44,305 nucleotides of DNA from a virus. The stretch covers positions 1 to 44,305 of the IMG/VR virus record IMGVR_UViG_3300039307_000027; one strand, given 5' to 3'. Shown piece by piece: positions 23,852 through 36,482 of the stretch; position 1 is the first letter of the stretch, and each line of letters starts with the position of its first letter. The translations under genes were made by a program, and so were the position numbers. A model generated the notes under the pieces. The model did no database searches, had not been told where the DNA came from, and was given only the letters and a program-made list of their open reading frames with translations.

Positions 23852-24086
23852 GTCGTTCCCTTTCTACGCTCGGGGGCCGCCTGATAGGTCATTCAATCCT
23901 ATCTCCGTGCGACGGCCCCTCCGCGCTGGTTGCTGGCCGAGATTCCCCACTTCGGCTCCCTTGAGTTCACTCACGGCCTTTACCTACAACCTGTATCGCT
24001 TCTAGCCGTCAGGCCCACAGTTAAGTGGCGATAGACAGTAGCCGCACTCTCTCAACCGACGCTGACGCGCCGCAGCAACCAAACTC
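23852..24086 (-). other. Leader region with strong stem-loops upstream of the NrdR-like gene
   Basis: These 235 bp carry no convincing larger gene. At 23873-23919 an outer 7-bp stem (GGGGCCG/CGGCCCC) encloses an inner 6-bp stem (GATAGG/CCTATC) with a 9-base loop. A second hairpin (GCCGA/TCGGC) lies at 23936-23956. A 36-codon GTG-started reading frame (23974-23864, beginning SELKGAEVGN) spans them and ends in the TAG that precedes the NrdR-like gene in the same frame. It could be a leader peptide or chance. A weak TTGAGA-N16-TATCGC promoter-like pair lies further upstream. A structured regulatory leader is plausible. Confidence 0.45.
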
Positions 24087-24269
24087 TTACTTGCCCTCGA
24101 TAGCGTCTGCCAGAGATTGCAACCACTCCTCCATCTCCTCGGGAGTTGTGGGCAATATCACAATGGCGTCCCTGACCATCTGAGCGCAGCGGTGACGTTC
24201 ATTGTCCACCATGCTCGACGCGTGCGCTCTGGCCCAAGCTGCGTACATCTCATTTGTGATCTCGTGCAT
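24087..24269 (-). CDS. Small acidic helical protein
   Basis: This 60-aa protein reads MHEITNEMYAAWARAHASS and ends EEMEEWLQSLADAIEGK. I chose ATG 24269 because GGAG sits just upstream and the preceding gene stops one base before it. The longer frame to 24329 only adds an Arg-rich reading of the neighbour. No family recognised. It is part of the run of small accessory genes. Confidence 0.65.
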   Translation of the reverse strand: MHEITNEMYAAWARAHASSMVDNERHRCAQMVRDAIVILPTTPEEMEEWLQSLADAIEGK

Positions 24270-24270
24270 T

Positions 24271-24549
24271 TTATTTCTCCTTGTCCGCCTCGCGCTCGCT
24301 CGGGGCGGAACGCTCCAACCGCGTGCCATTCTCTAATATCCAAGACAAGAGTAGTGGCACTGGTGCGTCGAAATCCCAAGTGGATTCTGCGTGACATTTC
24401 CCGCAAAAGTAAATCACAAAACTGCCACCCTCGTAGCACTCCGTCTTTTCATCACCACAAAGTTCGTTGCGGCACTCTGGGCAATAGCAGAACGTGCGTT
24501 GCTTACGCAGAACCTTCCAGCGTTTATATCTGGCCCACAATTCTGCCAT
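24271..24549 (-). CDS. Small zinc-ribbon protein
   Basis: This 92-aa protein starts at ATG 24549, with GGAGG in the end of the preceding gene. Basic residues (LWARYKRWKVLRKQR) are followed by a four-cysteine ribbon, CPECRNELC and FCGKCH, about 30 residues apart, then a Leu-rich segment and a charged tail. Metal binding is well supported by the paired CxxC motifs. Partner and role are unknown. TAA is followed after one base by the next ATG. Confidence 0.65.
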   Translation of the reverse strand: MAELWARYKRWKVLRKQRTFCYCPECRNELCGDEKTECYEGGSFVIYFCGKCHAESTWDFDAPVPLLLSWILENGTRLERSAPSEREADKEK

Positions 24550-24554
24550 GTGGC

Positions 24555-25274
24555 TCACTTCCCACCTCCGCTCGGCCCCGCGAGGGCGCGAATACATGGT
24601 GCAATTCTGTATCCCATCCAACCTGCAAGCGTATCGCATAGTTCCGCCGCTTTCTCCCGCGCATCGGCGCAGACTTGGGCATCGTGGACTGGGAGCCAAG
24701 CGGCGAGCTCGTCGGCACATTCATCCTTACCTGCTTCAGTGCAAGCGTGAAAGCCATCATTGCATTCGGCCTGTTTGCGCCACTTTTTTACCAAGTCCAC
24801 ATCGCTCGCTGGCGCGGCTGGAGGACTTCCCGTAGCAGGGTTTATTGATCCTTCGGCAATGTCTGCCGCCTCTCGCGGACTGTAGGGCGCGGCGGCTGGT
24901 GCTGGCTCCGTGTAATGGCTGCAACTCTTCATGTGAATGATTGGCCCCAGCTTTCCTACTACACGACACTCGGGGCAAAAGGGCGCTGGCGAGAGAAGGG
25001 CGGCGGCTTTGTCGACTGTGCTTCGCTTACCAGACCACAACCCGTGCATTCCAAGGTCAACTACGTCCTGCAAAACTTCACGCACCTGTTCCTCCGTGAG
25101 CCCCACGGGATGCGTGGCGAGAAGGGATTCCAAACTGACTTTCATCTTATCCGCTGTCGCCAAAATCTCTTCAAGCGCATCGTGCATTGCGCGTTCGTTA
25201 GTATTCCCATTCCAATATTCAAGAATGTGCTCAACATTTCCAAGCAACTCCCGCAACGCTTCAATGAGATTCAT
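24555..25274 (-). CDS. Helical protein with central cysteine motif, unknown function
   Basis: This 239-aa protein starts at ATG 25274 after GGAGGAAG and overlaps the upstream TGA by 4 nt. The N-terminal half is helical (LIEALRELLGNVEHILEYW, then LTEEQVREVLQDVVDLGM). FCPECRVVGKLGPIIHMKSC may bind metal. An Ala/Pro linker leads to a helical C-terminal domain with several cysteines (WRKQAECNDGFHACTEAGKD, ADAREKAAELCDTLAG). It looks like modular early-phage accessory protein. No function can be assigned. Confidence 0.6.
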   Translation of the reverse strand: MNLIEALRELLGNVEHILEYWNGNTNERAMHDALEEILATADKMKVSLESLLATHPVGLTEEQVREVLQDVVDLGMHGLWSGKRSTVDKAAALLSPAPFCPECRVVGKLGPIIHMKSCSHYTEPAPAAAPYSPREAADIAEGSINPATGSPPAAPASDVDLVKKWRKQAECNDGFHACTEAGKDECADELAAWLPVHDAQVCADAREKAAELCDTLAGWMGYRIAPCIRALAGPSGGGK

Positions 25275-25471
25275 GGCTTCCTCCGCTCGTCCTTGAGAAT
25301 GTCTTCGCATTCTTGGCAGTAACAACTGCGCCCGTACCGCTTCTTGGCAAATTCGGGAGCGGCGGATATGGGAAATAGCGTGAAGTGCTTCCACTGGTGG
25401 CACCGGGCACAAAGAATCGTGCTGCGGTCCGCTCCGCAGGTTGGACAAAATTCGGTGCGAGATGCGTTCAT
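25271..25471 (-). CDS. Small zinc-binding protein with two ribbon pairs
   Basis: This 66-aa protein has FCPTCGADRSTILCARCHQW and then CYCQECEDIL, giving three CxxC knuckles in a very short chain and probably one or two zinc sites. I chose ATG 25471 because GGAGGG is 9 bases upstream. A GTG at 25477 also overlaps the preceding stop but is too close to the ribosome site. Role unknown. Confidence 0.65.
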   Translation of the reverse strand: MNASRTEFCPTCGADRSTILCARCHQWKHFTLFPISAAPEFAKKRYGRSCYCQECEDILKDERRKP

Positions 25472-25473
25472 GC

Positions 25474-25665
25474 TCACTTGCCCTCCAGTAACTTCGCCTT
25501 ATCAAATGATTTTAGCCACGTAGTAATTTCAGGATCGTTCAGAAGTGGTTTTAATGCTTCCTTATCAGCTACGCGCCCATCGGGAGACAAAAGCTCCTGT
25601 GTGTGAATCACAATTGAAGCGAGTTTTATTTCAAGTGTTTCTGGCATATATGAAACTTTTTTCAT
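25474..25665 (-). CDS. Small hypothetical protein
   Basis: This 63-aa protein starts at ATG 25665 after GAGGAGC. It is alternately hydrophobic and charged (LEIKLASIVIHTQELLSPDG, EALKPLLNDPEITTWLKSF) and probably forms a small helical fold. There are no cysteines, unlike its neighbours. No family recognised. Confidence 0.6.
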   Translation of the reverse strand: MKKVSYMPETLEIKLASIVIHTQELLSPDGRVADKEALKPLLNDPEITTWLKSFDKAKLLEGK

Positions 25666-25687
25666 GTGCGATAGCTCCTCTCGGTCA

Positions 25688-25753
25688 TTAACTCAAATCC
25701 CAAAAACTCTTGCCACTTCGCTCCTCAGCCTTGCGGCTGCCCCGCTGGCTCAC
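25688..25753 (-). CDS. Possible tiny gene (21 codons)
   Basis: GTG 25753 overlaps the stop of the upstream nuclease-like gene by 4 nt (GTGA). The product SQRGSRKAEERSGKSFWDLS ends cleanly in TAA before the next gene. The coupling pattern is the same as at many true junctions here, but the length is too small to be sure. Confidence 0.3.
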   Translation of the reverse strand: MSQRGSRKAEERSGKSFWDLS

Positions 25754-26055
25754 AGCTCTTCTTCGCGCAATCCTTTGTCGCCCCATGCGTGCAGAAAGAT
25801 TCTGCCGCCGCAGCTTTTCCATCCATAGTGATGAGGACTCGCCAGGATCTTCGCTTTCCGCGCGGCAAAATTGCTCCATGAAGTCGTTTGCACCAGCGCG
25901 ATCGCCACCTGTGGTTTGTAGGCGCAAATGTCGCCGAAATCAAATAGGTCTTTCCGCACGTTCGCACGCGGAATCCACTTCTCGACCACCTGACAAGTGA
26001 AGCCAAGCTTATTCAGATAATCGAGACTCAACTGCATGGGCGATTTCCTTCTCAT
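25750..26055 (-). CDS. Small PD-(D/E)XK-like nuclease/resolvase-type protein
   Basis: This 101-aa protein contains LDYLNKLGFTCQVVEKWIP followed by RKDLFDFGDICAY and ALVQTTSWSNFAARKAKI. The order E25, a D-x-FGD motif (D36-D42), then Q56 and a basic AARKAKI helix resembles small restriction-like or Holliday-junction resolvase-like folds found in phage accessory regions. DNA cleavage or resolution is a family-level guess. ATG 26055 overlaps the TGA of the preceding zinc protein (ATGA). ATG 26037 with AAGGA is an alternative. Confidence 0.6.
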   Translation of the reverse strand: MRRKSPMQLSLDYLNKLGFTCQVVEKWIPRANVRKDLFDFGDICAYKPQVAIALVQTTSWSNFAARKAKILASPHHYGWKSCGGRIFLHAWGDKGLREEEL

Positions 26056-26228
26056 GCTGCTCTTTCTGCCGGTCGGCGCAGCGTTTCCAGTTTTGCGTAC
26101 ACTGGCCCGACGCGTATTTCTGCCTTCAATTCCCTGCAGCACTGATCGCACAAGACGAACACGACGCCGCGGCCTGGTGCTGTTCGCAACGTCGCTTCGC
26201 AGATCCCGCAGATGAGACGGGCGCTCAC
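26052..26228 (-). CDS. Small zinc-ribbon protein with GTG start
   Basis: This 58-aa gene is framed by 4-nt overlaps on both sides: GTGA with the HNH gene stop and ATGA with the nuclease-like start. The product SARLICGICEATLRTAPGRG ... VLCDQCCRELKAEIR has two cysteine knuckles (CGIC and CDQC) 17 residues apart, so it is a zinc ribbon. The C-terminal part is helical (VYAKLETLRRPAERAA). Double coupling and good motif spacing make it a likely real gene. Role unknown. Confidence 0.65.
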   Translation of the reverse strand: MSARLICGICEATLRTAPGRGVVFVLCDQCCRELKAEIRVGPVYAKLETLRRPAERAA

Positions 26229-26590
26229 GGTAGCAGCCTCATCTGTCCGGTTTCACGTTCGCGCCGTTCACGTCGATGCTGCCTGTGAAGTTTCACGTCG
26301 TAGCGCAGGTGACATCGCTGGCACATCGCTTTTAGGTGGCGCCGCCTTGCGCACTTCGGGCTGTGGCAGAGATGCGCGGTAGTGAGAACCACTTTCCCCT
26401 GTGCCCATTTAGCCGAATGTCCGTGCAGTTCTACGCAACGCCGTGGGCCTCCAGTCGTGCGATGTAACCCACATTCTCCTGTGCATTCACACTGCGGGAC
26501 ACCGTCAACATTCTTCGCGCGATTCATAACTTCGGCGCGAATCTGCCGCCAGTTTTTCGGGTACTGCGCGCGCTCGGAAGAAATAGGCAT
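26225..26590 (-). CDS. HNH-type endonuclease-like protein
   Basis: This 121-aa protein follows a known small phage HNH-like layout: YPKNWRQIRAEVMNRAKN, CECTGECGLHRT, then VVLTTAHLCHSPKCARRRH and LKAMCQRCHLRYD. The His/Asn-like and paired Cys residues would form a zinc-stabilised beta-beta-alpha metal nuclease. Such proteins can nick or cut DNA, often near cos or for homing, but no partner is visible here because terminase lies 3.5 kb downstream. ATG 26590 overlaps the preceding TGA (TGATG). A GTG at 26593 is the alternative. Confidence 0.75.
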   Translation of the reverse strand: MPISSERAQYPKNWRQIRAEVMNRAKNVDGVPQCECTGECGLHRTTGGPRRCVELHGHSAKWAQGKVVLTTAHLCHSPKCARRRHLKAMCQRCHLRYDVKLHRQHRRERRERETGQMRLLP

Positions 26591-26985
26591 CACGGTTTCT
26601 TTGGAGTTGGCGCAGTCGGTGTGGGCGTTGGAGCTGCTGGCGGCAGCGCGGGTATCTGTGGTTTGAAACTAAGAGTCTCTTCCTCCCATGTGTATCCCTG
26701 CGGCACCTGGCCCTGTAGTCGTGTGGCCATGCCGTTCAATTGGTCAATCTTCGCGGTAAGATTCTCTTTTTTCTGGATTGCGGCGATTTCGTCCCTGAGC
26801 GCTTTGAACTCCTGCCACTGCTCGACGAACTCCTTCGGCGCGATTTTGTTTTCCGCCGGCGCTACCTTCAAGGCTTTCAGAGGCGGAGTTTGGTTGCACC
26901 CCACGATCAGCACCACGAGGCCCAACAGCAAAAGCAGAATGCACCCTGCGAAAATCGCGTACTCTTTTCTCGAAATGTTGCTCAT
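26590..26985 (-). CDS. Membrane-anchored coiled-coil protein, lipoprotein-like
   Basis: This 131-aa protein has a strong hydrophobic segment (IFAGCILLLLLGLVVLIV, about 10-27) followed by GCNQ, a lipobox-like arrangement. A coiled coil follows (about 45-85, EFVEQWQEFKALRDEIAAI, ENLTAKIDQLNGMATRL) and a Pro/Thr-rich tail (PTPTPTAPTPKKP). GGAGG precedes ATG 26985, which overlaps the upstream stop by 4 nt. It probably faces the periplasm. It is far from the lysis genes, so a spanin role is not favoured. Confidence 0.65.
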   Translation of the reverse strand: MSNISRKEYAIFAGCILLLLLGLVVLIVGCNQTPPLKALKVAPAENKIAPKEFVEQWQEFKALRDEIAAIQKKENLTAKIDQLNGMATRLQGQVPQGYTWEEETLSFKPQIPALPPAAPTPTPTAPTPKKP

Positions 26986-27287
26986 GCTTCTTTTCCTCCT
27001 ATTTTTTGTTCCACCTTCGGAATTGGTTCGACTTGGACACGGCCCTCGGGAATCTGTGGCGTCGGCCACAATGCCTCGAAACTTTCGCTGTAAACCAGCA
27101 TGAAAAATGTATTGCGCTCGCGGTTGAACGCCGTGCGAAGCGCTTTCGCATCCGGCGGGAAGCCTTCGGTGACTTGCCAGTGGATCTCCTGGCCGTGAAC
27201 GAACACCTTGAGCAGCTCCTCCACCGGCACCGCATAGAGCTTCACGCGGTTGAGGTTCGGCTTTGTCACCACTGCGGGCTCAGTCAT
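26982..27287 (-). CDS. Small hypothetical protein
   Basis: This 101-aa protein starts at ATG 27287, overlapping the replication gene's stop by 4 nt. The sequence RVKLYAVPVEELLKVFVHGQ, then FNRERNTFFMLVYSESFEAL looks like a compact alpha/beta fold. The C-terminus is Pro/Lys-rich. No family recognised. Tight coupling suggests co-expression with the replication protein. Confidence 0.6.
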   Translation of the reverse strand: MTEPAVVTKPNLNRVKLYAVPVEELLKVFVHGQEIHWQVTEGFPPDAKALRTAFNRERNTFFMLVYSESFEALWPTPQIPEGRVQVEPIPKVEQKIGGKEA

Positions 27288-28195
27288 TTCGTTTTCCCCG
27301 CGAGGTCTGGATATTTCGCTTCGAGCTCCTTGAGTTCCCTGTTGGTCCGCTCTGCTTGTTCGGGAGTTGGGTTTCGATTTCCTTCTCCAGCCCTTGCTTC
27401 GGCAAGTACCGGGGAACTCCCGGTCAGTTCCCATTTGTCATAGTTCCCTTCCAACACCTTCAGATAGTTCGTGTCGTTGGCGATGAACCAGTCGAACGTT
27501 GGCGTCCACGTTGGCCAGCCAATACGGCTCGCGTGCTCAACGCTTTGCTCAAATTCCGACAGGTACTTTTGCGTCTCTACTTTATGATTCAGAAGACGCT
27601 GGCGGCACTTACTCAGGCGCTGTGGGGATAACTCCCTCACTCCTGGCAGGCTTCCGCGCTTCTGATCGTAGATTGCTAAAAGATTCTCTGGAGAGGCACA
27701 CACAGCGGCGTCAGCCGCAGGTTTTGACGTATTCCCTACCCCTACCAAACCTAACCCTACCCCTACCAAACCCAGCGAGGATTGTCCTAGGGAAGCCCCT
27801 AAGAGAGTCCTAGGATGCAAAAACTCCCTAAGTTCTTGAGCGGGCGGCACCTTACCACATACCATTTTTATTCTTTGGCTAGGTGGTGGAAGGCGTCCTT
27901 CCTTCTCAATTCCGACCCAATAGCCCCATTCTTTGCCATCTGGCTCATGCCAACGGAAAAGCAGCCTCACGCGCTCGTACTCATCGAGGATAGATTTGAC
28001 CGTATCGGGGAAGATGTCCGGGCGGTTGAAGCTGTACACTCGGGACCAGATTTGCGTCGGGCAACACTCAAAAGAACCGTTGGCTAATGCCAGGGTGACC
28101 AAGAGCGCATATTCGGCGCGAAACGATAGCGGCATCACCTCACGCAGCTTCTGCGAGGTCGCAATCGAATCCCCGTCCACGATCCGCTTAGGCAT
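27284..28195 (-). CDS. Replication initiation/helicase-loader-like protein (winged-helix plus DnaT-like C-terminus)
   Basis: This 303-aa protein shows a two-domain plan. The N-terminal region (about 20-100) is winged-helix-like (SFRAEYALLVTLALANGSF, TVKSILDEYERVRLLFRW, KEWGYWVGIEKEGRLPPP). A Gly/Val/Leu linker (GLVGVGLGLVGVG, near 150) leads to a C-terminal region with TFDWFIANDTNYLKVLEGNY, typical of phage proteins related to DnaT and replication proteins that load the host helicase. No phage polymerase or helicase is present, so replication should depend on host machinery recruited here. ATG 28195 overlaps the upstream stop. The DNA encoding the linker carries the candidate origin repeats. 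Confidence 0.75.
   Translation of the reverse strand: MPKRIVDGDSIATSQKLREVMPLSFRAEYALLVTLALANGSFECCPTQIWSRVYSFNRPDIFPDTVKSILDEYERVRLLFRWHEPDGKEWGYWVGIEKEGRLPPPSQRIKMVCGKVPPAQELREFLHPRTLLGASLGQSSLGLVGVGLGLVGVGNTSKPAADAAVCASPENLLAIYDQKRGSLPGVRELSPQRLSKCRQRLLNHKVETQKYLSEFEQSVEHASRIGWPTWTPTFDWFIANDTNYLKVLEGNYDKWELTGSSPVLAEARAGEGNRNPTPEQAERTNRELKELEAKYPDLAGKTK
27734..27815. repeat. Iteron-like repeats and palindromes inside the replication gene (candidate origin)
   Basis: Two tandem 21-bp units start at 27734 and 27755 with 18 identical leading bases (CCCTACCCCTACCAAACC). They are followed by two copies of the palindrome-containing TCCTAGG (27785-27791 and 27808-27814). An AT-richer stretch lies at about 27855-27880. 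The arrangement inside an initiator-type gene resembles lambdoid origins, where iterons encode the initiator's linker. Confidence 0.45.
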
Positions 28196-28451
28196 TCGCC
28201 TGCTCTCTTCGATCAATCACATCTAGCAAACTCATTTGTCCTTTTGGCGCCGGGTGCATGAACCACGAATAGACCGTGCCGTCGGTGCGTTTCTGCGTGG
28301 AGTTCAGGATCTCGAATCCTTCCGCGCGCAACTCGAATACCCGGGCGTTGTACTGCAGCGAGATCGCCGCCAGCAGGTAACATGGCACCCACTGACCGGC
28401 ACGCTCCTCGAGGAGCTGGCGCACTTTGTCGCGTTGGGTCAGGCGCTTCAC
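28188..28451 (-). CDS. Small winged-helix-like DNA-binding protein
   Basis: This 87-aa protein starts at GTG 28451. RDKVRQLLEERAGQWVPCYL, then LQYNARVFELRAEGFEI fits a winged-helix domain that reads short DNA sites, with a wing around STQKRTDGTVYSW. It overlaps the replication gene by 8 nt and may act with it at the origin or regulate the operon. Such stand-alone helix-turn-helix proteins commonly lie beside phage replication genes. Confidence 0.65.
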   Translation of the reverse strand: MKRLTQRDKVRQLLEERAGQWVPCYLLAAISLQYNARVFELRAEGFEILNSTQKRTDGTVYSWFMHPAPKGQMSLLDVIDRREQANA

Positions 28452-28452
28452 G

Positions 28453-28932
28453 TCAGTCTTCGTCGTCTTTTTTTACCTTGACCTTAACGCTTTCCTTCTC
28501 GTGAACAAGCCTGATTTCGATTCCATCGCGCTTGTAGAGTTCTTTGTTGTTCTTCTTCATCAGATCGAGTAGCTTCCCTTTCAGCTCGATTTCGGTTTCG
28601 AGTACGTGCATGCGGTCGTCTCTGGTACCCGCATATTCCCTGGCGGCGTCTTCAAGCTCTTCGATTGCAGGGTCTTCCATTCCAGGCAAGCGCACTGTCT
28701 TGCCGCGCTCGCTCGGCGGTACTTGTGATTGGCCAGCAGCTTTGCGCTTCTTGCGCTTCTCTTCGCGTTGCTGCTCCGTGTCGCCGGCTGTCTCCACGAA
28801 GGCTTGCAACTCCTCGTTCTTGACGGGCGTGTCAAAGTCAGCTACGGGATCGAGCGGCTGGATGCCGCGCTTTCTTGTTTTCTTTGGCGCCTGTTTCGGT
28901 AAATGCACTTCCGGACTATTCTTTTTTTTCAT
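28453..28932 (-). CDS. Charged coiled-coil protein
   Basis: This 159-aa protein starts at ATG 28932 after GGAGGAAGG, overlapping the previous stop by 4 nt. The N-terminal half is basic and disordered (KKKNSPEVHLPKQAPKKTRK). The C-terminal half is helical (IEELEDAAREYAGTRDDRM, LETEIELKGKLLDLMKKN) and ends in a Lys/Asp run. It resembles small phage proteins of unknown role linked to replication or recombination. No catalytic motif is visible. Confidence 0.6.
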   Translation of the reverse strand: MKKKNSPEVHLPKQAPKKTRKRGIQPLDPVADFDTPVKNEELQAFVETAGDTEQQREEKRKKRKAAGQSQVPPSERGKTVRLPGMEDPAIEELEDAAREYAGTRDDRMHVLETEIELKGKLLDLMKKNNKELYKRDGIEIRLVHEKESVKVKVKKDDED

Positions 28933-29174
28933 GCCTTCCTCCTGAAACTCGACGCCTCTGGACAATCGGAAAAATGCGGCACACGAATCGTGTAGAGCAC
29001 TGGCTGCGGGAAAACTTTCGTTTCGTCCTTCACGTCCTTGACACTCATCGGCATCTTTTTTCCGCGAGGGGTGACCCACCATTCGATGTAAGCGCCGCAG
29101 CCCCTGCAATTGCCCTCGCCGTCGAAGACATAACCCATCGCCACCAGATCTTCGCGTTTCTGCGGAATGCTCAT
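28929..29174 (-). CDS. Small cysteine-containing hypothetical protein
   Basis: This 81-aa protein contains GNCRGCGAYIEWWVTPRGKK and PHFSDCPEASSF. The CRGC and later HFxxC residues form a likely single zinc site around an aromatic sheet. The pattern is common in small phage proteins of unknown function. ATG 29174 overlaps the upstream stop (ATGA). Confidence 0.65.
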   Translation of the reverse strand: MSIPQKREDLVAMGYVFDGEGNCRGCGAYIEWWVTPRGKKMPMSVKDVKDETKVFPQPVLYTIRVPHFSDCPEASSFRRKA

Positions 29175-29395
29175 CGTTGGAATAACTCTCTAAATTCCCG
29201 AATCTTTTCGACCGGCATGGCAAAGCGCAGGCTCAAGGTCGCTTCCAGTTTTGCTTTGCGCTCGGCTACCTTCTGCGCGATTCCCCAGCAACCGTTCTCG
29301 ATGCATAAATGCGTGTCCCGGCTTACAAAGCGATTGTCAACGGCCCCGCATCCTTCGCAGCGTGGCCCGCGCACGAGTTTGAGGAGGAAGATCAT
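29171..29395 (-). CDS. Small four-cysteine protein
   Basis: This 74-aa protein starts at ATG 29395, overlapping the stop of the methyltransferase tail frame. CEGCGAVDNRFVSRDTHLC, then ENGCWG gives four cysteines suitable for one zinc, followed by a long helix (AQKVAERKAKLEATLSLRFA, EKIREFRELFQR). Role unknown. Confidence 0.6.
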   Translation of the reverse strand: MIFLLKLVRGPRCEGCGAVDNRFVSRDTHLCIENGCWGIAQKVAERKAKLEATLSLRFAMPVEKIREFRELFQR

Positions 29396-29541
29396 GCTGT
29401 CACCAGCTTTCGCTCCAGCAACCGCTCCGCATAATCCGCCACACAGTTCGCCAGTTCGGGAGGGATAGTGGCCATTTTCGCCGTCCATTCCTTGCGTTTC
29501 TCGCTGCCACTGCTTGACCAGGAGCCATCATTCAACTTGCG
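29392..29541 (-). pseudogene. Orphaned C-terminal tail of the cytosine methyltransferase after an in-frame TAG
   Basis: After the TAG at 29542-29544 the same frame continues RKLNDGSWSSSGSEKRKEW, then MATIPPELANCVADYAERLL to a TGA at 29392. The TGA overlaps the next gene's ATG in the ATGA style used throughout. The IPPELA segment resembles the C-terminal IPxxLAxxIA motif of phage DNA methyltransferases. Conserved character and coupling argue that the TAG is recent, is a sequencing error, or is read through. A TTG at 29535 could restart translation, but no ribosome site is visible. Confidence 0.6.
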
Positions 29542-30048
29542 CTATTCTGTGAGTGCTTGCCGATCAACTCGCTTGAGTTTCTGAATGATGCTTCCACCAG
29601 TCTGGAATCCCTTCTTGATTCCTTGCGGCATAATTGGTGGGACCGCGTTTCCCCAAAGGTAAAACGGCCCGCAGTGATTCTCGGCGTTACCAACAAATCC
29701 CTGTGCATAACGCACGTTCTCCATTACATAGGGCACGCCGCTCGCTTCGCAGAGTTTCCGCGTGTGATTGAACAGCTTGATGGCCAGTTCTGGATAGGGC
29801 GGATTCGGGTGGAAGTGCTTCATGCCGTGAACGCTAAATTGCTCGCAAGGTGGACTGGCTACGATGAAGTCAAAATCATTCCGAAGGAAGATGCCCGCGC
29901 TGAGTTCAAGTACGTCACATTTCCAAAATGTGCAACCTTGGGGGATTTCGGGCGACTCAACCAAATCCATGCCCACACATTCCCATCCCCGCGCAGCAAA
30001 CGCCCTGCTCCAGCCCCAGCGCCCGCAGAATAGGTCAAGCAGCCTCAT
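29542..30048 (-). CDS. DNA cytosine-5 methyltransferase, cut short by an amber codon
   Basis: This 168-aa product has the cofactor motif DLFCGRWGWSRAF (5-17), the catalytic PPCEQFS (66-72, Cys68) and the ENV motif (VMENV, 108-112), all in the order of C5 methyltransferases. Phage enzymes of this compact type modify the genome to evade host restriction. Translation ends at TAG (codon 169), yet the same frame continues for 49 sensible codons. The intact gene would give 218 aa. The catalytic core is complete but the C-terminal helix is lost. ATG 30048 overlaps the upstream stop by 4 nt. Confidence 0.8.
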   Translation of the reverse strand: MRLLDLFCGRWGWSRAFAARGWECVGMDLVESPEIPQGCTFWKCDVLELSAGIFLRNDFDFIVASPPCEQFSVHGMKHFHPNPPYPELAIKLFNHTRKLCEASGVPYVMENVRYAQGFVGNAENHCGPFYLWGNAVPPIMPQGIKKGFQTGGSIIQKLKRVDRQALTE

Positions 30049-30254
30049 CGCCGATTCCCCGCCTCAGCCAGATAGGCCGAAACGATGTGCCGGACGAGCA
30101 TGTTCTCGATTCCCAATCGAATCTCCCGCAACTCGTCGGAGCTCAGCGCCTGGGGATGTTGTTCCCATGTGGCTTCGCAGCCGGTTTTTGCGGCCAGGAG
30201 TTGCGTGATCTCCGCATGCAACTGCGATGGCGTGATGGTCAATAGGTCGATCAT
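30045..30254 (-). CDS. Small hypothetical protein
   Basis: This 69-aa helical protein (LLTITPSQLHAEITQLLAAK, SDELREIRLGIENMLVRHI) has a single cysteine. I chose ATG 30254 with GAGG upstream. The frame extends to 30401, but the added N-terminus is Arg/Pro-rich and out of character. Coupled to the methyltransferase by ATGA. Function unknown. Confidence 0.55.
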   Translation of the reverse strand: MIDLLTITPSQLHAEITQLLAAKTGCEATWEQHPQALSSDELREIRLGIENMLVRHIVSAYLAEAGNRR

Positions 30255-30306
30255 GTGGGCCTCGAAATGGGCGGTTACTATTCGCGCCGCCCTCGCGGTT
30301 GGAGGG

Positions 30307-30681
30307 TTAAGTGGTTGATGCGGGCGCTGGCGGATTGACCGCCGTGTCATCGGCTGCCAGTACGCCCGTGGCGGCACCCACGGACGCAGTAAGCGAATCA
30401 ATGTCAGCCTGATTCACAATGACTTGCCCTGGCCCCGGTCCTGGCGTGGAATTGGCCAAAAGTTTCTTCACATCTGCGTCAACCGTAGTCACCTTGGCCG
30501 TGAGTCCTGCTACTGCTGCCTGCAATCCTGAAAGTCCTGTTCCCAAATGTTTCCTCCCTTTTCTTAATTCATCCCATATGACGATTAGCCACACGAGAAG
30601 AGCGGTCAGTAACGCTGCAATCAGTAGTGTTCCATTTGACAACTTTGACAACGCTGCGATCAGTGCTGTTCCGTTTGACAT
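30307..30681 (-). CDS. Single-pass membrane protein with duplicated N-terminus
   Basis: This 124-aa protein begins SNGTALIAALSKL followed by SNGTLLIAALLTALL, an in-frame tandem duplication visible in the DNA as two near-identical stretches of about 29 bp. The second copy runs into a transmembrane helix (to LIVIWDEL). A helical linker follows (LSGLQAAVAGLTAKV), then a Gly/Pro linker and a tail found in many small phage proteins (VNQADIDSLTASVGAATG). Role unknown. Confidence 0.6.
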   Translation of the reverse strand: MSNGTALIAALSKLSNGTLLIAALLTALLVWLIVIWDELRKGRKHLGTGLSGLQAAVAGLTAKVTTVDADVKKLLANSTPGPGPGQVIVNQADIDSLTASVGAATGVLAADDTAVNPPAPASTT

Positions 30682-30688
30682 TTCTGCG

Positions 30689-30979
30689 TCACCTCAAAAG
30701 CAAAATGCCCCATGCACACAGGCTCGCCAGAATCGCCACGACGATGCCCCAGGACCAGGAGATTCCCGGCTTCACTTGCAGCGGCCGGGACTTCCGAGGG
30801 GCAGTGGAAGCCCCGGTCTGTTGCTGCATCAGGGAAGGCGGGTGGATTTGGACAAGAGGAGCGCTCGTCCAGTCTTCCCCGAAAGTTTGCACCACGGTCA
30901 TGTTCGGGCCGCAGTGGATCTCCATCATGGCGTTCTCACTGACGTAAACATCGAAGCTGTTGTTAGTGTCCACGATCAT
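30689..30979 (-). CDS. Tail-anchored membrane protein
   Basis: This 96-aa protein starts at ATG 30979, 4-nt coupled to the Imm5-like gene. The soluble N-terminal part (MIVDTNNSFDVYVSENAMME, MTVVQTFGEDWTSAPLVQI) is followed by a basic stretch and one C-terminal hydrophobic helix (WGIVVAILASLCAWGILLL). The pairing with an immunity-type gene may be functional, but nothing else supports a role. Confidence 0.6.
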   Translation of the reverse strand: MIVDTNNSFDVYVSENAMMEIHCGPNMTVVQTFGEDWTSAPLVQIHPPSLMQQQTGASTAPRKSRPLQVKPGISWSWGIVVAILASLCAWGILLLR

Positions 30980-31575
30980 TTTGAAGCTCCGATGCTCGCA
31001 GGAATCTTCAATTGCTTCCTGCAAATGTCAGCGGATTCGCGGAGCCGTGCGGCGTAGGCGGCGTCGGCGGCGTCGGCGTCGGCGGCGTCGGCGGCGTAGG
31101 CGGCGTAGGCGGCGGCGCAGGCGGCGGCGCAGGCAGCGGCGTAGGCGGCGGCGCAGGCAGCGGCGTAGGCGGCGGCGTAGGCGGCGGCGTAGGCAGCGGC
31201 GTAGGCGGCGGCGTAGGCGGCGTCGGCGGCGTAGGCGGCGCAGGCGGCGGCGGCGGCGCTCCGCACATCCTCAATCGTACCTTCCCCTTTAGCCCATTTC
31301 CGCGCCGCTTCGATGGCCAGTCGTGGCCGTTTGTCGTCCGGGTACTTATCCTCAAACGACTTCAGCGACAATTCCGCGCAATCACAGCACGCCAGGACAA
31401 TTTGTTGTCGCGTCGGCCAGTCTTTCTTTCCTTGCATCTTTCCGCACAGCCACAGCATCCAGTCTCCGCGTTCGCAGGCTTTCCACGCGGCGCGCAGCGT
31501 TTTGTAATTCTTCGCCCAAACAACTGATTCTTTGCAGGCTCCAATCGCTTTCAGACTTCTCGTTAATGTGGCCAT
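30976..31575 (-). CDS. Imm5-like putative immunity protein with Ala/Tyr repeats
   Basis: This 199-aa protein starts at ATG 31575 after GGAGGG. Residues about 15-110 match the family annotated as putative immunity protein (VWAKNYKTLRAAWKACERGD, then CAELSLKSFEDKYPDDKRP, RLAIEAARKWAKGEGTIEDV). A long Ala-rich helix made of AAYAAAYA/AACAAAYA units follows, then LRESADICRKQLKIP. Imm5-type proteins were first linked to polymorphic toxin systems, and phage copies are known but unexplained. The coding DNA is a GC-rich microsatellite (31050-31259), so length can vary by slippage in multiples of codons. Confidence 0.7.
   Translation of the reverse strand: MATLTRSLKAIGACKESVVWAKNYKTLRAAWKACERGDWMLWLCGKMQGKKDWPTRQQIVLACCDCAELSLKSFEDKYPDDKRPRLAIEAARKWAKGEGTIEDVRSAAAAACAAYAADAAYAAAYAAAYAAAYAAAYAAACAAAYAAACAAACAAAYAAYAADAADADAADAAYAARLRESADICRKQLKIPASIGASK
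31050..31259. repeat. GC-rich microsatellite in the Imm5-like gene
   Basis: About 210 bp are built from GGCGGCGTA, GGCGGCGCA and GGCGTC triplet blocks, encoding (AAYA)n and (AACA)n on the minus strand. Repeat number is expected to vary between genomes and can confound assembly. Confidence 0.85.
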
Positions 31576-31850
31576 GCTTCCCTCCGTTTCGGCCCATAGG
31601 ACCAGCCCCGCGGCATTGCTATCACTTTTGCCTGGCGCGCTTGTAAGACGCGGGCAAGATTGAGGAGCGATGTGGACCCGCAGACCTGACAGGTGGAATG
31701 CTTTGACGGCGTGATGTACTCGCAGTTCGCGCACAGCACAGACTCTTTGATCGGAATGGAAACGACGGTGCGGCCGGCTGGGGCGTGGTGCTGAATGTGA
31801 AGCCAAACGCTTATCGCGATCAGAATCAATCCAAGAATCAGACCATCCAT
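31563..31850 (-). CDS. Membrane-anchored zinc-ribbon protein
   Basis: This 95-aa protein has an N-terminal helix (GLILGLILIAISVWLHI, residues 3-19), then a linker and a four-cysteine ribbon (LCANCEYITPSKHSTCQVCG). A basic C-terminus follows. It overlaps the Imm5-like gene start by 13 nt. Topology suggests that the ribbon is near the membrane. The 102 bp upstream contain only a 7-bp hairpin (31926-31947) without a T-run. Confidence 0.6.
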   Translation of the reverse strand: MDGLILGLILIAISVWLHIQHHAPAGRTVVSIPIKESVLCANCEYITPSKHSTCQVCGSTSLLNLARVLQARQAKVIAMPRGWSYGPKRREAWPH

Positions 31851-31952
31851 TACTTCCCCCGCTTTCGCATGCGGCCCGGTCTTACCTTGACTCGTTCAGG
31901 GCCAGAGGCTCCGGGCCGTCACGCTATTCCCAGTACGCCGTGGGAATCTCTT

Positions 31953-32654
31953 TCAACCACGAACAGAGACAGAGTTCTCGGGGTACGCTTGCACACCCGG
32001 TATATTGGTCAAACTCTTCTGGCTGCGCACCACGGAGCCGATCGCGGTCTCGTTGAACTGCAGAAATCCCAGCAACCTGTCGTCAGCGGCCGCTGCCTTC
32101 ACCAGCGCCTTGATCGCGTCCAGTTCGCTGCCCTTCTTCCGCCATTTCCAGTTCGTCCGACTGGCCACACCATCAAACTTCGGCACTGAAGTCGGAACGC
32201 TCACCACCGGTGCAGGCGCTTGCGCGGCATTTTCGAGAACCAGGTCGGCCAGTTCCTTGTCGCCCTGCGATTCGAGTTGTGCCGCTTCTGCCAGCGCGTC
32301 CTCTTCCTGTTTTTTGCGCGCTTCTTCGGCCAGCCGCAGTTCTTCCTGCCTGCGCTTGCGGTCCTCTTCCTGCCTCCAGACCGTCACTTTGCTCTTGACG
32401 GAAATTTCGGCTTGCTCCAATGGCTCCATGAACTTCTTTTTCTGTGCCACCGCTTCCTTGTGCGTGTCGTATGCCTTCTTCACGATCGGGTCGAAGACGT
32501 CCGCGACCTGTTTTTTCCGATTCGCCACGAGGGTCAGAAAAGAGCACGCGAACTCGTACTGCTCCGCGTCCTTCACAACAATCTGATTCGCCTGCGCCAC
32601 AACCGCAGGGACTAACCTCTCAACTTCCTGTGGAGTGATGATTGCTGTTGCCAT
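31953..32654 (-). CDS. Coiled-coil recombination-associated protein
   Basis: This 233-aa protein is typical of long-helix phage proteins encoded next to exonuclease/annealing genes. It has an N-terminal region (VERLVPAVVAQANQIVV), long charged helices at about 45-135 (HKEAVAQKKKFMEPLEQAEI, RRQEELRLAEEARKKQEED) and a C-terminal globular part (SRTNWKWRKKGSELDAIKAL, SQKSLTNIPGVQAYPE). Gam-like or nuclease-modulating functions are reported for some relatives, but I cannot assign one. It directly follows the RecB-like nuclease. Confidence 0.65.
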   Translation of the reverse strand: MATAIITPQEVERLVPAVVAQANQIVVKDAEQYEFACSFLTLVANRKKQVADVFDPIVKKAYDTHKEAVAQKKKFMEPLEQAEISVKSKVTVWRQEEDRKRRQEELRLAEEARKKQEEDALAEAAQLESQGDKELADLVLENAAQAPAPVVSVPTSVPKFDGVASRTNWKWRKKGSELDAIKALVKAAAADDRLLGFLQFNETAIGSVVRSQKSLTNIPGVQAYPENSVSVRG

Positions 32655-32655
32655 G

Positions 32656-33255
32656 TCACTTTCCTTTCGATTGTTTCCAGTAAACGAGCGCCAGGGCCCA
32701 CTTCCAAACCTGGTAGTCCCGCGCCTCTTTGAACAGGCACAGTGAATAAGTGCCGTTCGGCTTCAAATGAACTGCGGCGCGTTGGCGCACGATGCCATCC
32801 TGCTGGCGCAGTGCGTGCTCATAAGCCGCTGTCTGCGGCCCCCAACTGATCTCCACTGCCGCCGTGCACTTGATGTCCAGCAGCACTGGCTTTTCGCCCA
32901 GGAAGCCGTCGCGGTCGAAGGTGTAGCCATATTCCATGCCGTCGATCGTGGCGATGCCGCGGGTCTCGCACTTGCGCGGCGTGAATCGTGCTTCTTCCCT
33001 GAATCGCATCCATGCGGTCAGGTAGGGAACGATTTCCGATACAACGGACTCACGATTGAGGTCGTCTTCATCGAAATAGTGCGCGGCCTTGTGTACCGCT
33101 GTTCCGAGTCGCGCCTTTGCATCCAGAACTTCCGGCTCAACGTGGCTGTAATCCACCAGACCGACTTCCTGCAGTACCTGCGTGACAGAAGGGATGATTC
33201 TGCCGCCACGCAGGTACGTGTGCGTTTCCTCGACGAATTGGAATGCGGTCACCAT
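32656..33255 (-). CDS. RecB-family PD-(D/E)XK exonuclease
   Basis: This 199-aa protein carries the full motif set of RecB/Cas4-type nucleases: GTAVH (51-55), an acidic region with DRDGFLGEKP (about 114-123), LLDIKC (125-130, Asp127 and Lys129) and QTAAYEHAL (141-149). Such phage enzymes resect DNA ends for recombination or replication restart. It sits between the metal-binding RDF-like protein and the coiled-coil protein, forming a recombination block without an obvious annealing protein. ATG 33255 is chosen over an in-frame TTG at 33261. Confidence 0.85.
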   Translation of the reverse strand: MVTAFQFVEETHTYLRGGRIIPSVTQVLQEVGLVDYSHVEPEVLDAKARLGTAVHKAAHYFDEDDLNRESVVSEIVPYLTAWMRFREEARFTPRKCETRGIATIDGMEYGYTFDRDGFLGEKPVLLDIKCTAAVEISWGPQTAAYEHALRQQDGIVRQRAAVHLKPNGTYSLCLFKEARDYQVWKWALALVYWKQSKGK

Positions 33256-33257
33256 GG

Positions 33258-34394
33258 TCAAAAGGGAATATCTTCGTCACCGGCTTTGAAGTCTTCTGGC
33301 TCATCCATCTGTACGCTCTTGAACCTCCGCATAACCTCGTCATAGAGGGTGGGCGGGATCTCCGCGCTCGACCTGATGCCCCACTTGTTCATCAGAATGT
33401 TTTTGACCTGCTCCGTGCCCCAGCCAGTCTCGACGCAAACGCCATAGAAGGCGCGACGCTGTTCGGAGGAAATGAACTGGACTGCTGGCTGTTGTATGCC
33501 TGCCGGAATTGTAGTGGTCACATATTCGGACCTGCGCGTTGGTTGCTGCACGGCCGGCACCGCGGCAATCTCGCTCTCGGGGTAAAACTCCTGGGCCACA
33601 TCCGGCGCGCGTTCGGTTTCCGGCTCGTTCTCTGCTACCAACTCCACCTTGCGGCCACTCCCCAGTAGCTTTTTGGTCTGCTCAAACAACTTAGCGTGCT
33701 CCGTCATCGTGGAAACCAGGCGGTTCATGTCTTGGGCGGAGAGTTCGATGTTCAGGGCGTAGATTGTCGTGGAAACTTTCTTGCCCTTGGCCGTGTCCAT
33801 GTATGCGGCCTTTTCCGGGCGCACGACCAATTTGCAGCGAATGCCTGCAAGCCTGCCGCCGGTCACGGTGCGGATCTGTTCCAGCGCGGAGTGGATCTGG
33901 CGGATGGAGCGGTAGGAAGTCGTGTGCAGCCGGCAGAGCGCGCCCAGGCGGGGAAATTCGGCCAGAACGAAGTAGAGGTCGCCGGAAGGCTTGCAGGTAC
34001 CTGCTTCGAGGTCTTTGCAAGCATCGCCACAGGGCGTCCAATCTTCGCCATCTGGTGCCCTCTCTGTGCGGCGGGTGGCTTCTCTGCCATCGCCCCAGCA
34101 CTTTTTCTCCGTCCTGCTCCACCAAGCGTACTCAGTGCGGAAGACATTCTCGATTTCGTCGTCAAGCAGGATGATCCAGAACTCACGGCATTCGTGGCCG
34201 TAGTGCTTCACCAGTTCCTGGTCGAGTTCCCATTCCAGCTTTGTGCTTTTGCGCAGGAAAATGAAGTGGTCCAGCTTGTTCGGCCTGGTGCCATTCGCCG
34301 TGCTGACCACTTCGCCGATCGCCACTTTCGTCGTCACAGCCAGGCGCTGAATCGCCTCGCCTGATTCACTGACCGTCAATCCGATGATTGCCAT
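33258..34394 (-). CDS. Metal-binding early protein, recombination-directionality-factor-like
   Basis: This 378-aa protein belongs to a widespread phage group often labelled hydrolase or metal-binding. It has LDHFIFLRKSTKLEWELD, then FRTEYAWWSRTEKKCWGDG, CGDACKDLEAGTCKPSG (four cysteines) and CRLHTTSYRSIRQIHSAL. Cysteines in the sequence C..CG..C...C suggest a zinc site. Distant likeness to phiC31 gp3-type directionality factors exists in the layout, but no integrase is present, so another DNA-processing role with the neighbouring nuclease is more likely. GGAGGGG precedes ATG 34394. The C-terminal third (VQFISSEQRRAFYGVCVETGW) is a separate helical domain. Confidence 0.65.
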   Translation of the reverse strand: MAIIGLTVSESGEAIQRLAVTTKVAIGEVVSTANGTRPNKLDHFIFLRKSTKLEWELDQELVKHYGHECREFWIILLDDEIENVFRTEYAWWSRTEKKCWGDGREATRRTERAPDGEDWTPCGDACKDLEAGTCKPSGDLYFVLAEFPRLGALCRLHTTSYRSIRQIHSALEQIRTVTGGRLAGIRCKLVVRPEKAAYMDTAKGKKVSTTIYALNIELSAQDMNRLVSTMTEHAKLFEQTKKLLGSGRKVELVAENEPETERAPDVAQEFYPESEIAAVPAVQQPTRRSEYVTTTIPAGIQQPAVQFISSEQRRAFYGVCVETGWGTEQVKNILMNKWGIRSSAEIPPTLYDEVMRRFKSVQMDEPEDFKAGDEDIPF

Positions 34395-34410
34395 GCGCCC
34401 CTCCTGAAAA

Positions 34411-34878
34411 TCACCACCCCCCGTTTTTCTTGCTGTATGCGATCGCCACGGCGTTGTCCGCAGGCCCGTACCACTGTAAAAGCCGCTCAATCTTGTGGTG
34501 GTTGTGCCTGTGTGCCCAATATGACGCGAGCCACAGGGCGCCGTCCTGCGCGGCCATCATCACCACGGCCGGACCACACTTCTGCGTTGGCAGAAAATCC
34601 TCGTGTCCTCTGTGCCCCAGATTGTTGCAGGTCTGCGCAGCGTCAAAGGTCAGCAGCGTGGCCGTTGTTGCCAGCGCAATCTTTGTGTGCTTATCCCAAT
34701 ACCGCGTTTGCACAACTCGCTTCGGTTCTGGCGAGATCGGAAGATCGTTAGTCAACGCTGGGATTGGAAGAAGCAACGCGAGTGCTACTACGCATATTAC
34801 TACTACGTAAGATGTACTATTGGATTCTATTTTAATTACTGGTAACTTCGCGGCGTCCCGAAAGGAAAATATGGACAT
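34411..34878 (-). CDS. Membrane or secreted protein at the head of the early operon
   Basis: This 155-aa protein has a hydrophobic segment (VVVICVVALALLLPIPAL, about 29-46), usable as a signal peptide or anchor. A hydrophilic part follows with CNNLGHRGHEDFLPTQKCGP, a second mildly hydrophobic stretch (VVMMAAQDGALWLASYW) and a His-rich HRHNHHK. The start is uncertain. ATG 34878 overlaps the divergent plus-strand gene by 8 bp, and a weaker downstream start is possible. Unknown function. Export would place it on the cell surface early in infection. Confidence 0.55.
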   Translation of the reverse strand: MSIFSFRDAAKLPVIKIESNSTSYVVVICVVALALLLPIPALTNDLPISPEPKRVVQTRYWDKHTKIALATTATLLTFDAAQTCNNLGHRGHEDFLPTQKCGPAVVMMAAQDGALWLASYWAHRHNHHKIERLLQWYGPADNAVAIAYSKKNGGW

Positions 34879-35074
34879 TCCATTTCGGTTTCTGTTGGAT
34901 TCATCGAACGGCGTGATTGGGGAATACGAACTTTCGCGGCTCAACCATGCGGCAAACTTGCGGAAGGAAATACGTGTAAACTTCGAGCGCGCCGTGGACG
35001 ATCTTGCGGAAGCAAGATTCGCTAGGTGGCTGCTCGATAACCGCAGAAAATTGACTATGCGGCGGCTAAAATGA
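34871..35074 (+). CDS. Small charged protein on the plus strand, divergent from the early operon
   Basis: This 67-aa protein starts at ATG 34871 with AAAGGA upstream. The composition (YELSRLNHAANLRKEIRV, FERAVDDLAEARFARWLLDN, then basic LTMRRLK) looks like a real helical protein. The frame continues upstream to 34820, but without a ribosome site. It faces away from the leftward early genes, across an AT-rich stretch (about 34785-34860) with a direct repeat CTACTACG, and is followed by a terminator at 35121-35151. The location suggests a regulator, but no known motif is seen. Confidence 0.55.
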   Translation: MDIPFRFLLDSSNGVIGEYELSRLNHAANLRKEIRVNFERAVDDLAEARFARWLLDNRRKLTMRRLK

Positions 35075-35120
35075 GGATTTTGGGTCCTGCCTACAGATAT
35101 TATGTTAACTTGGAATTGGC

Positions 35121-35151
35121 GGGCATTCATGGCTAGGCCACCTGCCCTTTT
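35121..35151 (+). terminator. Intrinsic terminator for the plus-strand gene
   Basis: GGGCA (35121-35125) pairs with TGCCC (35143-35147), with an inner TGGC/GCCA stem (35130-35133 and 35137-35140), followed by TTTT. It lies 46 bp after the plus-strand stop and overlaps the 3' end of the convergent RHH gene. Confidence 0.6.
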
Positions 35152-35300
35152 GATTGCCGCACGGAAATATCATTCAGAACACAAAGTCGCACGTATTCAG
35201 AGAGGCGAAGATTTAGCCGCTTGGCCTGATTTTCAATCGCCTTGCGCTCGCTAAGAGTTGCCCTAAAGCCTGTCGTCTTTACTCGGTTCTCTCTTGGCAT
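35133..35300 (-). CDS. Ribbon-helix-helix-like DNA-binding regulator, likely leaderless
   Basis: This 55-aa protein (PRENRVKTTGFRATLSERKA, then IENQAKRLNLRLSEYVRL) has the beta-strand plus two-helix plan of Arc/CopG/MobC-type regulators. A well-spaced promoter (35307-35335) puts the expected transcription start at or within a base or two of ATG 35300. There is no Shine-Dalgarno, so the mRNA is probably leaderless, as for lambda cI. It is the best candidate for a phage regulator here, and autoregulation through repeats in the promoter is plausible. Confidence 0.65.
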   Translation of the reverse strand: MPRENRVKTTGFRATLSERKAIENQAKRLNLRLSEYVRLCVLNDISVRQSKGQVA

Positions 35301-35306
35301 GGTGGG

Positions 35307-35335
35307 AGTATCCACTTTTGTTAAACGCCTGTCAA
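35307..35335 (-). promoter_or_regulatory. Consensus-like sigma70 promoter for the RHH gene
   Basis: On the minus strand TTGACA (35335-35330) is followed by a 17-base spacer and GATACT (35312-35307). The -35 box is perfect. Seven bases downstream is ATG 35300. Just upstream lie two copies of AAAATAGT (about 35338-35355), possible operator half-sites. Confidence 0.75.
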
Positions 35336-35444
35336 GCACTATTTTAAACTATTTTTGTGGAAATTTAGAGGGGCGGAAAGAGGACTGGTAAGATAGGAAA
35401 CCGACGCAATCGGGGCGGGCGCTTACTTCTTAGGCATCAGGCAG

Positions 35445-35747
35445 TTATGCGCCGAGGGCGGCCTTGGCGCGGGCTTCTTCCTCTTGCGCACGTTCCAGAT
35501 CCCCGGCATTGGCCAGCAGTCCGTGCTTCTTCTGAATCTCGCCCAGTCCCCAGTTAAGCAGCTTGGCGAACTCGTTGCCCTTTGCGGCATAGCGTTGCGC
35601 GCGGGCCGATATCGTTTCGTCCAGATTGCCGTCCGCAAGAACGTTCACGAAGTCGTCCATACCGGTCAGTACCCGCTGGAGGTAATAATGGTGCGAAGCG
35701 TTGACCTGCGCCTGAGCGATTTGTTCCGGTGTCAGTGGTGTGCTCAT
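35445..35747 (-). CDS. Small helical hypothetical protein
   Basis: This 100-aa all-helical protein (LTPEQIAQAQVNASHHYYL, ISARAQRYAAKGNEFAKLL, LERAQEEEARAKAALG) is 4-nt coupled to the upstream membrane protein. It is at the end of the lysis-region transcript. Function unknown. Between it and the RHH promoter (35340-35444) I see no further gene. Confidence 0.6.
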   Translation of the reverse strand: MSTPLTPEQIAQAQVNASHHYYLQRVLTGMDDFVNVLADGNLDETISARAQRYAAKGNEFAKLLNWGLGEIQKKHGLLANAGDLERAQEEEARAKAALGA

Positions 35748-36088
35748 TTTTTACTCGGTTCTATTACGGTAGTCCCAGTACCGTCAATTCCCTGCTGGTA
35801 GGCTTTGGTGATGGACTGGGGCACGACGAGCATGAGGGTGCGGCCCCTGGGGTCGCGCAGGAGTAGCGAAAAAACGCAGACGGTCATCCACACCATGCCC
35901 CAGCCGATTGCGATGGCCCAGGGCTTCCCTGCGATGAGCAGGAAGCCACAGGGTCCAAAGAAGCCGATGAACGCGGAAAAGAACACAGAGAGAAGCAGGC
36001 GTATCCAGTTCTGAATCTCCCCGTGCTCGATTTTGGACAGGATCAGCCCGCCAATGCCGCTGATCGCGCCGCTGATGAGTCCGCCCAT
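35744..36088 (-). CDS. Two-helix membrane protein, holin candidate
   Basis: This 114-aa protein has a Gly/Ile-rich N-terminus (GLISGAISGIGGLILSK), two hydrophobic segments (LLLSVFFSAFIGFFGPCGFLL, about 31-52; AIAIGWGMVWMTVCVFSLLL, about 58-77) and a polar C-terminus. Size, topology and position 1.1 kb after the endolysin suggest a holin, which would release the endolysin by making membrane holes. The other candidate is the N-terminal part of the 36483-37193 protein. The assignment is by context only. Confidence 0.55.
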   Translation of the reverse strand: MGGLISGAISGIGGLILSKIEHGEIQNWIRLLLSVFFSAFIGFFGPCGFLLIAGKPWAIAIGWGMVWMTVCVFSLLLRDPRGRTLMLVVPQSITKAYQQGIDGTGTTVIEPSKK

Positions 36089-36089
36089 G

Positions 36090-36266
36090 TCACATCTCTG
36101 CGATCAGCGCTTTTTGCACCACATCTACAAGCGCCAGCTCTATCTGCGGATCGAGAGGGACGTCGTGCTCGCCAAGCCATCTGCACACAGCCTCCGTCAC
36201 TCTCACCGACAGGCGCGGTATCGTGTTGGGCATACCTTCGGTTGTCCTCTGGGGATCGTTATCCAT
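36090..36266 (-). CDS. Small hypothetical protein (58 aa)
   Basis: This gene starts at ATG 36266, one base after the upstream stop, and ends in TGA two bases before the holin candidate's ATG. The product (NTIPRLSVRVTEAVCRWLGE, DPQIELALVDVVQKALIAEM) is a plausible small helical fold. The tight fit between neighbours supports it. Function unknown. Confidence 0.6.
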   Translation of the reverse strand: MDNDPQRTTEGMPNTIPRLSVRVTEAVCRWLGEHDVPLDPQIELALVDVVQKALIAEM

Positions 36267-36267
36267 G

Positions 36268-36474: not shown

Positions 36475-36482
36475 GACGCGCC

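Follow-up and report, generated by a model that had tools for sequence, protein, structure and literature searches.

A probable replication origin with short phased sites and a G/T-rich tract inside the initiator gene of a phage

Does a repeat-bearing stretch within a phage replication initiator gene represent the site at which replication starts, or does it only encode a flexible linker between two protein domains? This question was raised by the IMG/VR virus record IMGVR_UViG_3300039307_000027, which was analyzed over its full length of 44,305 nucleotides (referred to as the window). The record features a 92-bp terminal repeat at its ends and therefore is very probably complete and circularly closed. 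Based on comparative sequence analysis, positions 27,734–27,815 very probably constitute the core of a theta-type replication origin located inside its own initiator gene. An earlier note on the same DNA had placed the origin within the coding sequence of the initiator, on the model of lambda O. This plan is well supported by the relatives of the phage, whereas the labels given to its parts had to be revised: the 21-bp units belong to a strand-asymmetric tract, and the CCTAGG sites are the likely iterons.

The initiator gene and the repeats in its linker

The phage replication initiator gene is an open reading frame on the minus strand (27,284–28,216) with PHROG matches in its C-terminal part and phrog_1408 matches in its N-terminal family. 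It opens with TTG at 28,216, and the start shared by the family is an ATG at 28,195 (MPKRIVDG...). The N-terminal winged-helix domain (27,869–28,195, minus strand), the presumed iteron binder, was modeled by AlphaFold2 as helices and a two-strand wing with a mean pLDDT of 88.2. Fold comparison returned winged-helix proteins, including the initiator entries 4pql, 4pt7 and 5kbj, at Z values of 6.8–7.5 that are tied with many other winged helices; it supports a winged helix without a decisive family. These three entries, titled initiator or Rep-DNA complex, are presumably RepA_N proteins. No RepA_N Pfam match was obtained for the window protein or for the 26 N-terminal domains of the locus set described below. 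The family phrog_1408 ('replication initiation protein') was matched by 20 of these 26 domains, with a best value of 7e-10 and a value of only 0.032 for the window.

The C-terminal domain (27,419–27,724, minus strand; residues 165–266) matched phrog_10469 (4e-9) and phrog_345 (3.6e-7), representing DnaD-like helicase loader and O-like initiator families. Between the two better-predicted parts, residues 110–165 showed pLDDT values below 50 and are predicted to be disordered; the model of the whole protein, with a mean pLDDT of 67.5, is of low confidence away from the two domains. In the related locus L007, genes for a DnaB-like helicase and a DnaC-like loader are found upstream and downstream, respectively. 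Based on the C-terminal PHROG matches, the winged-helix N-terminal domain of the phrog_1408 family and the disordered residues 110–165, the repeats are correctly described as part of the interdomain linker of a replication initiator.

The repeated sequence CCCTACCCCTACCAAACC occurs at 27,734–27,751 and 27,755–27,772, identical in 18 of 18 bases and spaced by 21 bp. Two such matches were obtained in none of 100 shuffles, and no further match with up to three mismatches exists in the window. Translation of the repeats yields LGLVGVGLGLVGVG within the stretch of low pLDDT. The earlier note had described two 21-bp units sharing 18 bases, a linker encoded by them and two palindromes beside them, and all three observations held. 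On the minus strand, both units are part of a strand-asymmetric G/T tract (27,734–27,773) comprising eight GG runs, one every 5–6 nt.

The hexamer CCTAGG is present at 27,786–27,791 and 27,809–27,814. It is not enriched across the window (three copies observed, 4.4 expected), and two of its three copies lie within 29 bp at this place. Three candidate iterons are distinguished on the minus strand: TCCTAGG (27,809–27,815), located 42 nt before the GG tract and kept as TCCTAGGA in the relatives L002–L004; TCTTAGG (27,798–27,804), bearing one mismatch and located at -31, where the three nearest relatives possess an intact CCTAGG; and CCCTAGG (27,786–27,792), located 19 nt before the tract. Accordingly numbered from the tract, the sites at -42, -31 and -19 (27,815, 27,804 and 27,792) are spaced by about one helical turn. 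Since the second site is degenerate, the array of the window is not significant on its own by autocorrelation (P 0.645), and the case for an iteron array is carried by the family and not by the window alone.

Further features were inspected around these sites. A short GC hairpin after the tract (GCGGC-TGAC-GCCGC, 27,705–27,718, minus strand) is listed tentatively, with P 0.077 in the window; among the 26 loci chosen for the tract it reached P≤0.05 in eight, with a combined P of 3e-6, and it was rejected as a part of the element for being too patchy. AT content is 56% in the region 27,815–27,880 and 43% in the genome as a whole, and the most AT-rich 60-nt segment of the gene (60%) is situated elsewhere; the AT-richer stretch of the earlier note is accordingly weak. 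No Rfam match was found in 24,000–37,000. Another chain of eight GG runs was observed on the minus strand at 1696–1741, within an open reading frame of 545 amino acids (268–1905). It is not accompanied by an iteron array and was rejected as a second origin, and because of this chain the GG tract alone is no marker. Elsewhere, at 31,049–31,252, a minus-strand open reading frame (30,976–31,806, 276 amino acids) harbors about 16 copies of the 12-bp tandem repeat GCGGCGTAGGCG, encoding an Ala/Tyr-rich sequence (AAYAAAYA...).

The window gene is represented at 90–91% protein identity in three IMG/VR contigs. These closest relatives (L002–L004) contain TCCTAGGA three times, at distances of 11 and 12 bp, and their second 21-bp unit is shorter by 6 bp. 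The proposal that the 21-bp units are the initiator-binding iterons was therefore given up, as they form the GG tract and one of them is shortened in all three relatives. Between the window and L002, synonymous changes were found in 4 of 64 codons over the element plus the following 39 codons, versus 59 of 236 in the remainder of the gene (Fisher P 0.0008). A disordered linker under protein selection alone is expected to drift, and the window linker does not. Mosaic exchange between phages could partly account for the local conservation near the element.

The element in related loci

Using the N-terminal domain as query, 30 and later 34 loci in viral contigs and three in bacterial genome contigs, all of them Acidobacteria MAGs, were collected. 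Together with the window and without L045 (partial sequence), 37 loci were available, 31 of which remained after removal of near-duplicates. GG chains were defined as G runs spaced by 4–8 nt with no CC between them. Omission of L034 and of four loci with chains under five (L021, L033, L046 and L051) gave a set of 26 loci; because these five were dropped, the tests for lags, hairpins, stop codons, phased sites, AT content and G-quadruplexes cover loci chosen for the tract.

The N-terminal domain is followed by a short array of repeated sites and then by a C-poor GG run on the coding strand. The sites differ from phage to phage, e.g., TCCTAGGA, TCCCGGA, CCAATGG, TCAGCGG and TCTTAGA. In the 450 nt after the domain, chains of at least five GG runs were detected in 27 of the 31 loci, of at least six in 24 and of at least seven in 20. 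The rest of the same loci, comprising 366,618 nt searched on both strands, contained 45, 13 and 4 chains of these respective lengths. On the opposite strand of the same region, a chain of six was found once and a chain of five three times in the 31 loci. Among loci fetched after the pattern had been noticed, L049, L050 and L052 featured chains of 9, 9 and 6, and L051 featured none.

The domain was also detected in 4 of 396 sampled Acidobacteriota genomes, one of which was already in the set. The distant Acidobacteriota loci L144 and L145, which like L143 were examined after the pattern had been noticed, possess a purine GG chain of eight after the domain. In L143, ACTCCGG-type sites about 11 bp apart are followed, within about 150 nt after the domain, by a period-6 AAGTTT/AAGTCT tract free of GG runs, a sequence suggesting that the period matters more than GG.

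A search of all IMG/VR contigs with two tract fragments, 18 and 19 nt long, moreover returned 32 stretches. Nine of these, with chains of at least seven, all adjoin this initiator domain, and the other 23, with chains of 4–5, do not. Since the nine contigs were already known, this search addresses specificity and not discovery. The element is associated with replication initiators.

Exceptions were also recorded. In 2 of the 31 loci (L021 and L051), no element was found near the initiator domain, and chains of 6–7 elsewhere in these contigs lack iterons at the usual position. Both initiators have similar C-terminal parts and are devoid of linker and element; the origin of these phages may have moved elsewhere. 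The chain of L033 is short, and the longest chain of L034 is off position. The initiator of L012 has a different N-terminal domain; at 5325–5400, TTCCCGGAA-type sites exactly 10 bp apart precede a purine-rich GAAGTAGAAGAA repeat, which, judged by its layout, is the same plan with another tract type. A purine tract occupies the same relative place in L013. In L019, L020, L023, L024 and L047, the winged-helix domain and the element are joined to various C-terminal domains or to almost none, in the manner of a portable module.

Geometry and conservation outside coding sequence

Repeat lags upstream of the tract were analyzed for the 26 tract-selected loci. The only strong peaks were at 10 (z 7.6) and 11 (z 10.0); the next-largest was at lag 22 (z 2.6), and lags 3, 6, 9 and 12 did not exceed 1.7. 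In 14 of the 26 loci, versus 1.9% of the control windows, three or more phased 7-mer sites were present (allowing one mismatch, on either strand), mostly near -40, -29 and -19 from the tract. Hence the element shows a fixed geometry, and its sites recur once per helical turn without keeping to the codon register. A modest enrichment was seen for exact palindromic 6-mers ahead of the tract (27 versus 16.7 expected, z 2.4).

In 8 of the 26 loci, the GG chain begins after a stop codon, where programmed frameshifting is possible. Four of these eight feature a purine-rich AGGAG-like leader before the next open reading frame; in L027, L028, L030 and L032, the next gene starts 40–60 nt past the chain. 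Fused loci such as L023 read on in frame into the same second domain. A ninth non-coding case is L046, with the element about 50 nt behind the gene. Mean GG spacing amounts to 5.43 nt where the tract is non-coding and to 5.51 nt where it is coding, and in the coding loci L024 and L050, which show exact 5-nt spacing, the GG runs cross all three frames. Given that the tract lies after a stop codon in eight relatives and behind the gene in a ninth, and that the lags are out of codon register, it is the DNA that is conserved and not the linker protein. In the comparison of relatives proposed by the earlier note, the DNA element persists even outside coding sequence; an initiator without the element, which that note had named as a refuting case, exists in L021 and L051.

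These observations bear on the reading that the stretch is low-complexity DNA made by slippage and tolerated as a flexible glycine-rich linker. It would account for the predicted disorder, for the Gly-X repeats encoded in many loci and for the frame-locked 6-nt units of L025, L044 and L049. A tract lying beyond the coding sequence in eight of the 26 loci and past the end of the gene in L046, a 5-nt spacing crossing all frames, iteron lags of 10–11 that are no multiples of 3 and synonymous changes rarer than in the remainder of the gene oppose it, and it is regarded as extremely unlikely. An initiator-bound site serving regulation or partition, i.e., an autorepressor operator or a centromere and not a replication start, would have phased iterons as well, since such iterons also serve operators and centromeres. 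The element, however, is located within or behind the gene and not where a promoter would lie, a search of 26,900–28,900 returned no sigma-70-like site, and place and order match the lambda and pSK41 origins; this interpretation is considered unlikely.

A location of the origin elsewhere was considered in connection with nucleotide skew. The GC-skew test suggested in the earlier note, by which a minimum or switch near 27.7 kb would support an origin there, spoke against the element: the cumulative minimum lies near 34.6–34.7 kb, 7 kb from the element, and 27.75 kb is midway on the detrended curve. The region 34,411–35,130 includes a 100-nt stretch of 64% AT (34,794), among the most AT-rich of the window and close to the lowest point of the detrended G-C skew (34,618), and is one example of where such an origin might lie. 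In the window, however, skew follows the gene strand. Across the 13 other contigs its course mostly either runs monotonically with the gene strand or bears no relation to the element, and it is nearly uninformative there; a consistent relation to the element is absent from the 14 contigs. Moreover, no GG tract of at least six runs occurs near 34.8 kb. An origin outside the element, at this place or another, is judged to be very unlikely, and the element at 27,734–27,815 remains the preferred location.

Comparison with known origins and proposed mechanism

The lambda origin is described as lying inside the initiator gene O (PMC7466680), with an A+T-rich region holding nearly all purines in one strand and with a requirement for transcription through or near the origin (PMC5043065). 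In lambda as in the phage described here, the central part of the initiator gene holds iterons and then a strand-asymmetric tract, arranged alike relative to the direction of transcription; in lambda O, the 40-nt segment richest in purines (80% on the coding strand) begins where iteron 4 ends. In contrast, lambda iterons are 18 bp long and 20–24 bp apart, compared to 7–8-bp sites 10–12 bp apart in this family, and the lambda tract is A-rich, whereas the phage tract is G/T-rich and about half GC. Inverted-repeat iterons of 18–19 bp spaced by about 20 bp, which characterize lambdoid origins, occur neither in the window nor in its relatives. By tblastn against phage records, no similarity was found beyond one C-terminal match.

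For SPP1 gene 38, an origin-binding protein is reported to bind direct repeats located within the gene that encodes it, and an AT-rich unwinding element lies next to them (PMC6316719). Candidate direct repeats inside the own initiator gene are shared with SPP1 oriL. An AT-rich unwinding element is not: no positioned AT-rich stretch is kept in place across the 26 tract-selected loci (median P 0.425), and such an element was rejected for lack of a fixed position.

The closest match in architecture is the plasmid pSK41, in whose rep gene, according to PMC5703833, four Rep boxes located centrally are bound by the N-terminal winged helix, the linker, encoded by ori, tolerates in-frame deletion and the C-terminal domain is DnaD-like; for pPR9, the same source describes the exchange of N-terminal domain and origin as a unit. 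The three-part plan of winged helix, linker and DnaD-like C-terminal domain is common to both systems. They differ in iterons, tract and host, and the phage protein lacks a RepA_N Pfam match. In position and geometry, the window corresponds to an embedded origin, with tandem candidate sites between DNA-binding and recruitment domains. As no AT-rich element is positioned and a G/T tract is found in its place, the locus is assigned to a variant of the embedded-origin plan and not to the lambdoid or SPP1 group. An origin inside the initiator gene is known; what differs is the pairing of short iterons, phased at one turn, with a phased G/T tract that takes the place of AT-rich DNA.

With lambda, SPP1 and pSK41 as models, protein binding, opening and a role of the GG tract can be envisaged as follows. 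The winged-helix domains of the initiator would bind the three short phage-specific iterons on one helix face. The bound array would strain and open the adjacent tract, and the G/T-rich coding strand would be held open or captured. The helicase would then be recruited by the C-terminal DnaD/O-like domain or, in split relatives, by a separate gene product. Opening at the GG tract is the least certain step of this scheme; as the non-template strand, the G-rich strand could favor an RNA-DNA hybrid during transcription of the gene. Variable iterons beside a constant type of tract would fit a site specific to the initiator, adjoining an opening element that the phages share. G-quadruplex formation was rejected as a common function, with G4Hunter values of at least 1.2 in only 6 of the 26 tract-selected loci; the window tract (1.78) is among these six, and formation in the window is possible without being a family trait.

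Tentatively, and with some doubt, the tract is proposed to be a new type of opening element. It would consist, on the non-template strand, of C-poor GG runs every 5–6 nt, or roughly half a turn of the helix, replacing the AT-rich unwinding element at about 19 bp from the last of three phased iterons. It would be portable together with the winged-helix domain, whether it lies within a linker, separates split genes or follows the gene, and would be opened by strand-specific capture or an RNA-DNA hybrid and not by easy melting. Titles and abstract openings of the papers searched yielded no description of a GG-phased tract at a phage origin.

If this interpretation is true, it would provide a precise origin address for diverse uncultured soil phages linked to Acidobacteriota, as well as a rule for finding further such origins. 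Furthermore, strand asymmetry would be separated from AT-richness, two properties that are usually confounded in origins. Opening without an AT-rich stretch would become directly testable, and the natural non-coding copies of the element would represent ready-made constructs for this purpose.
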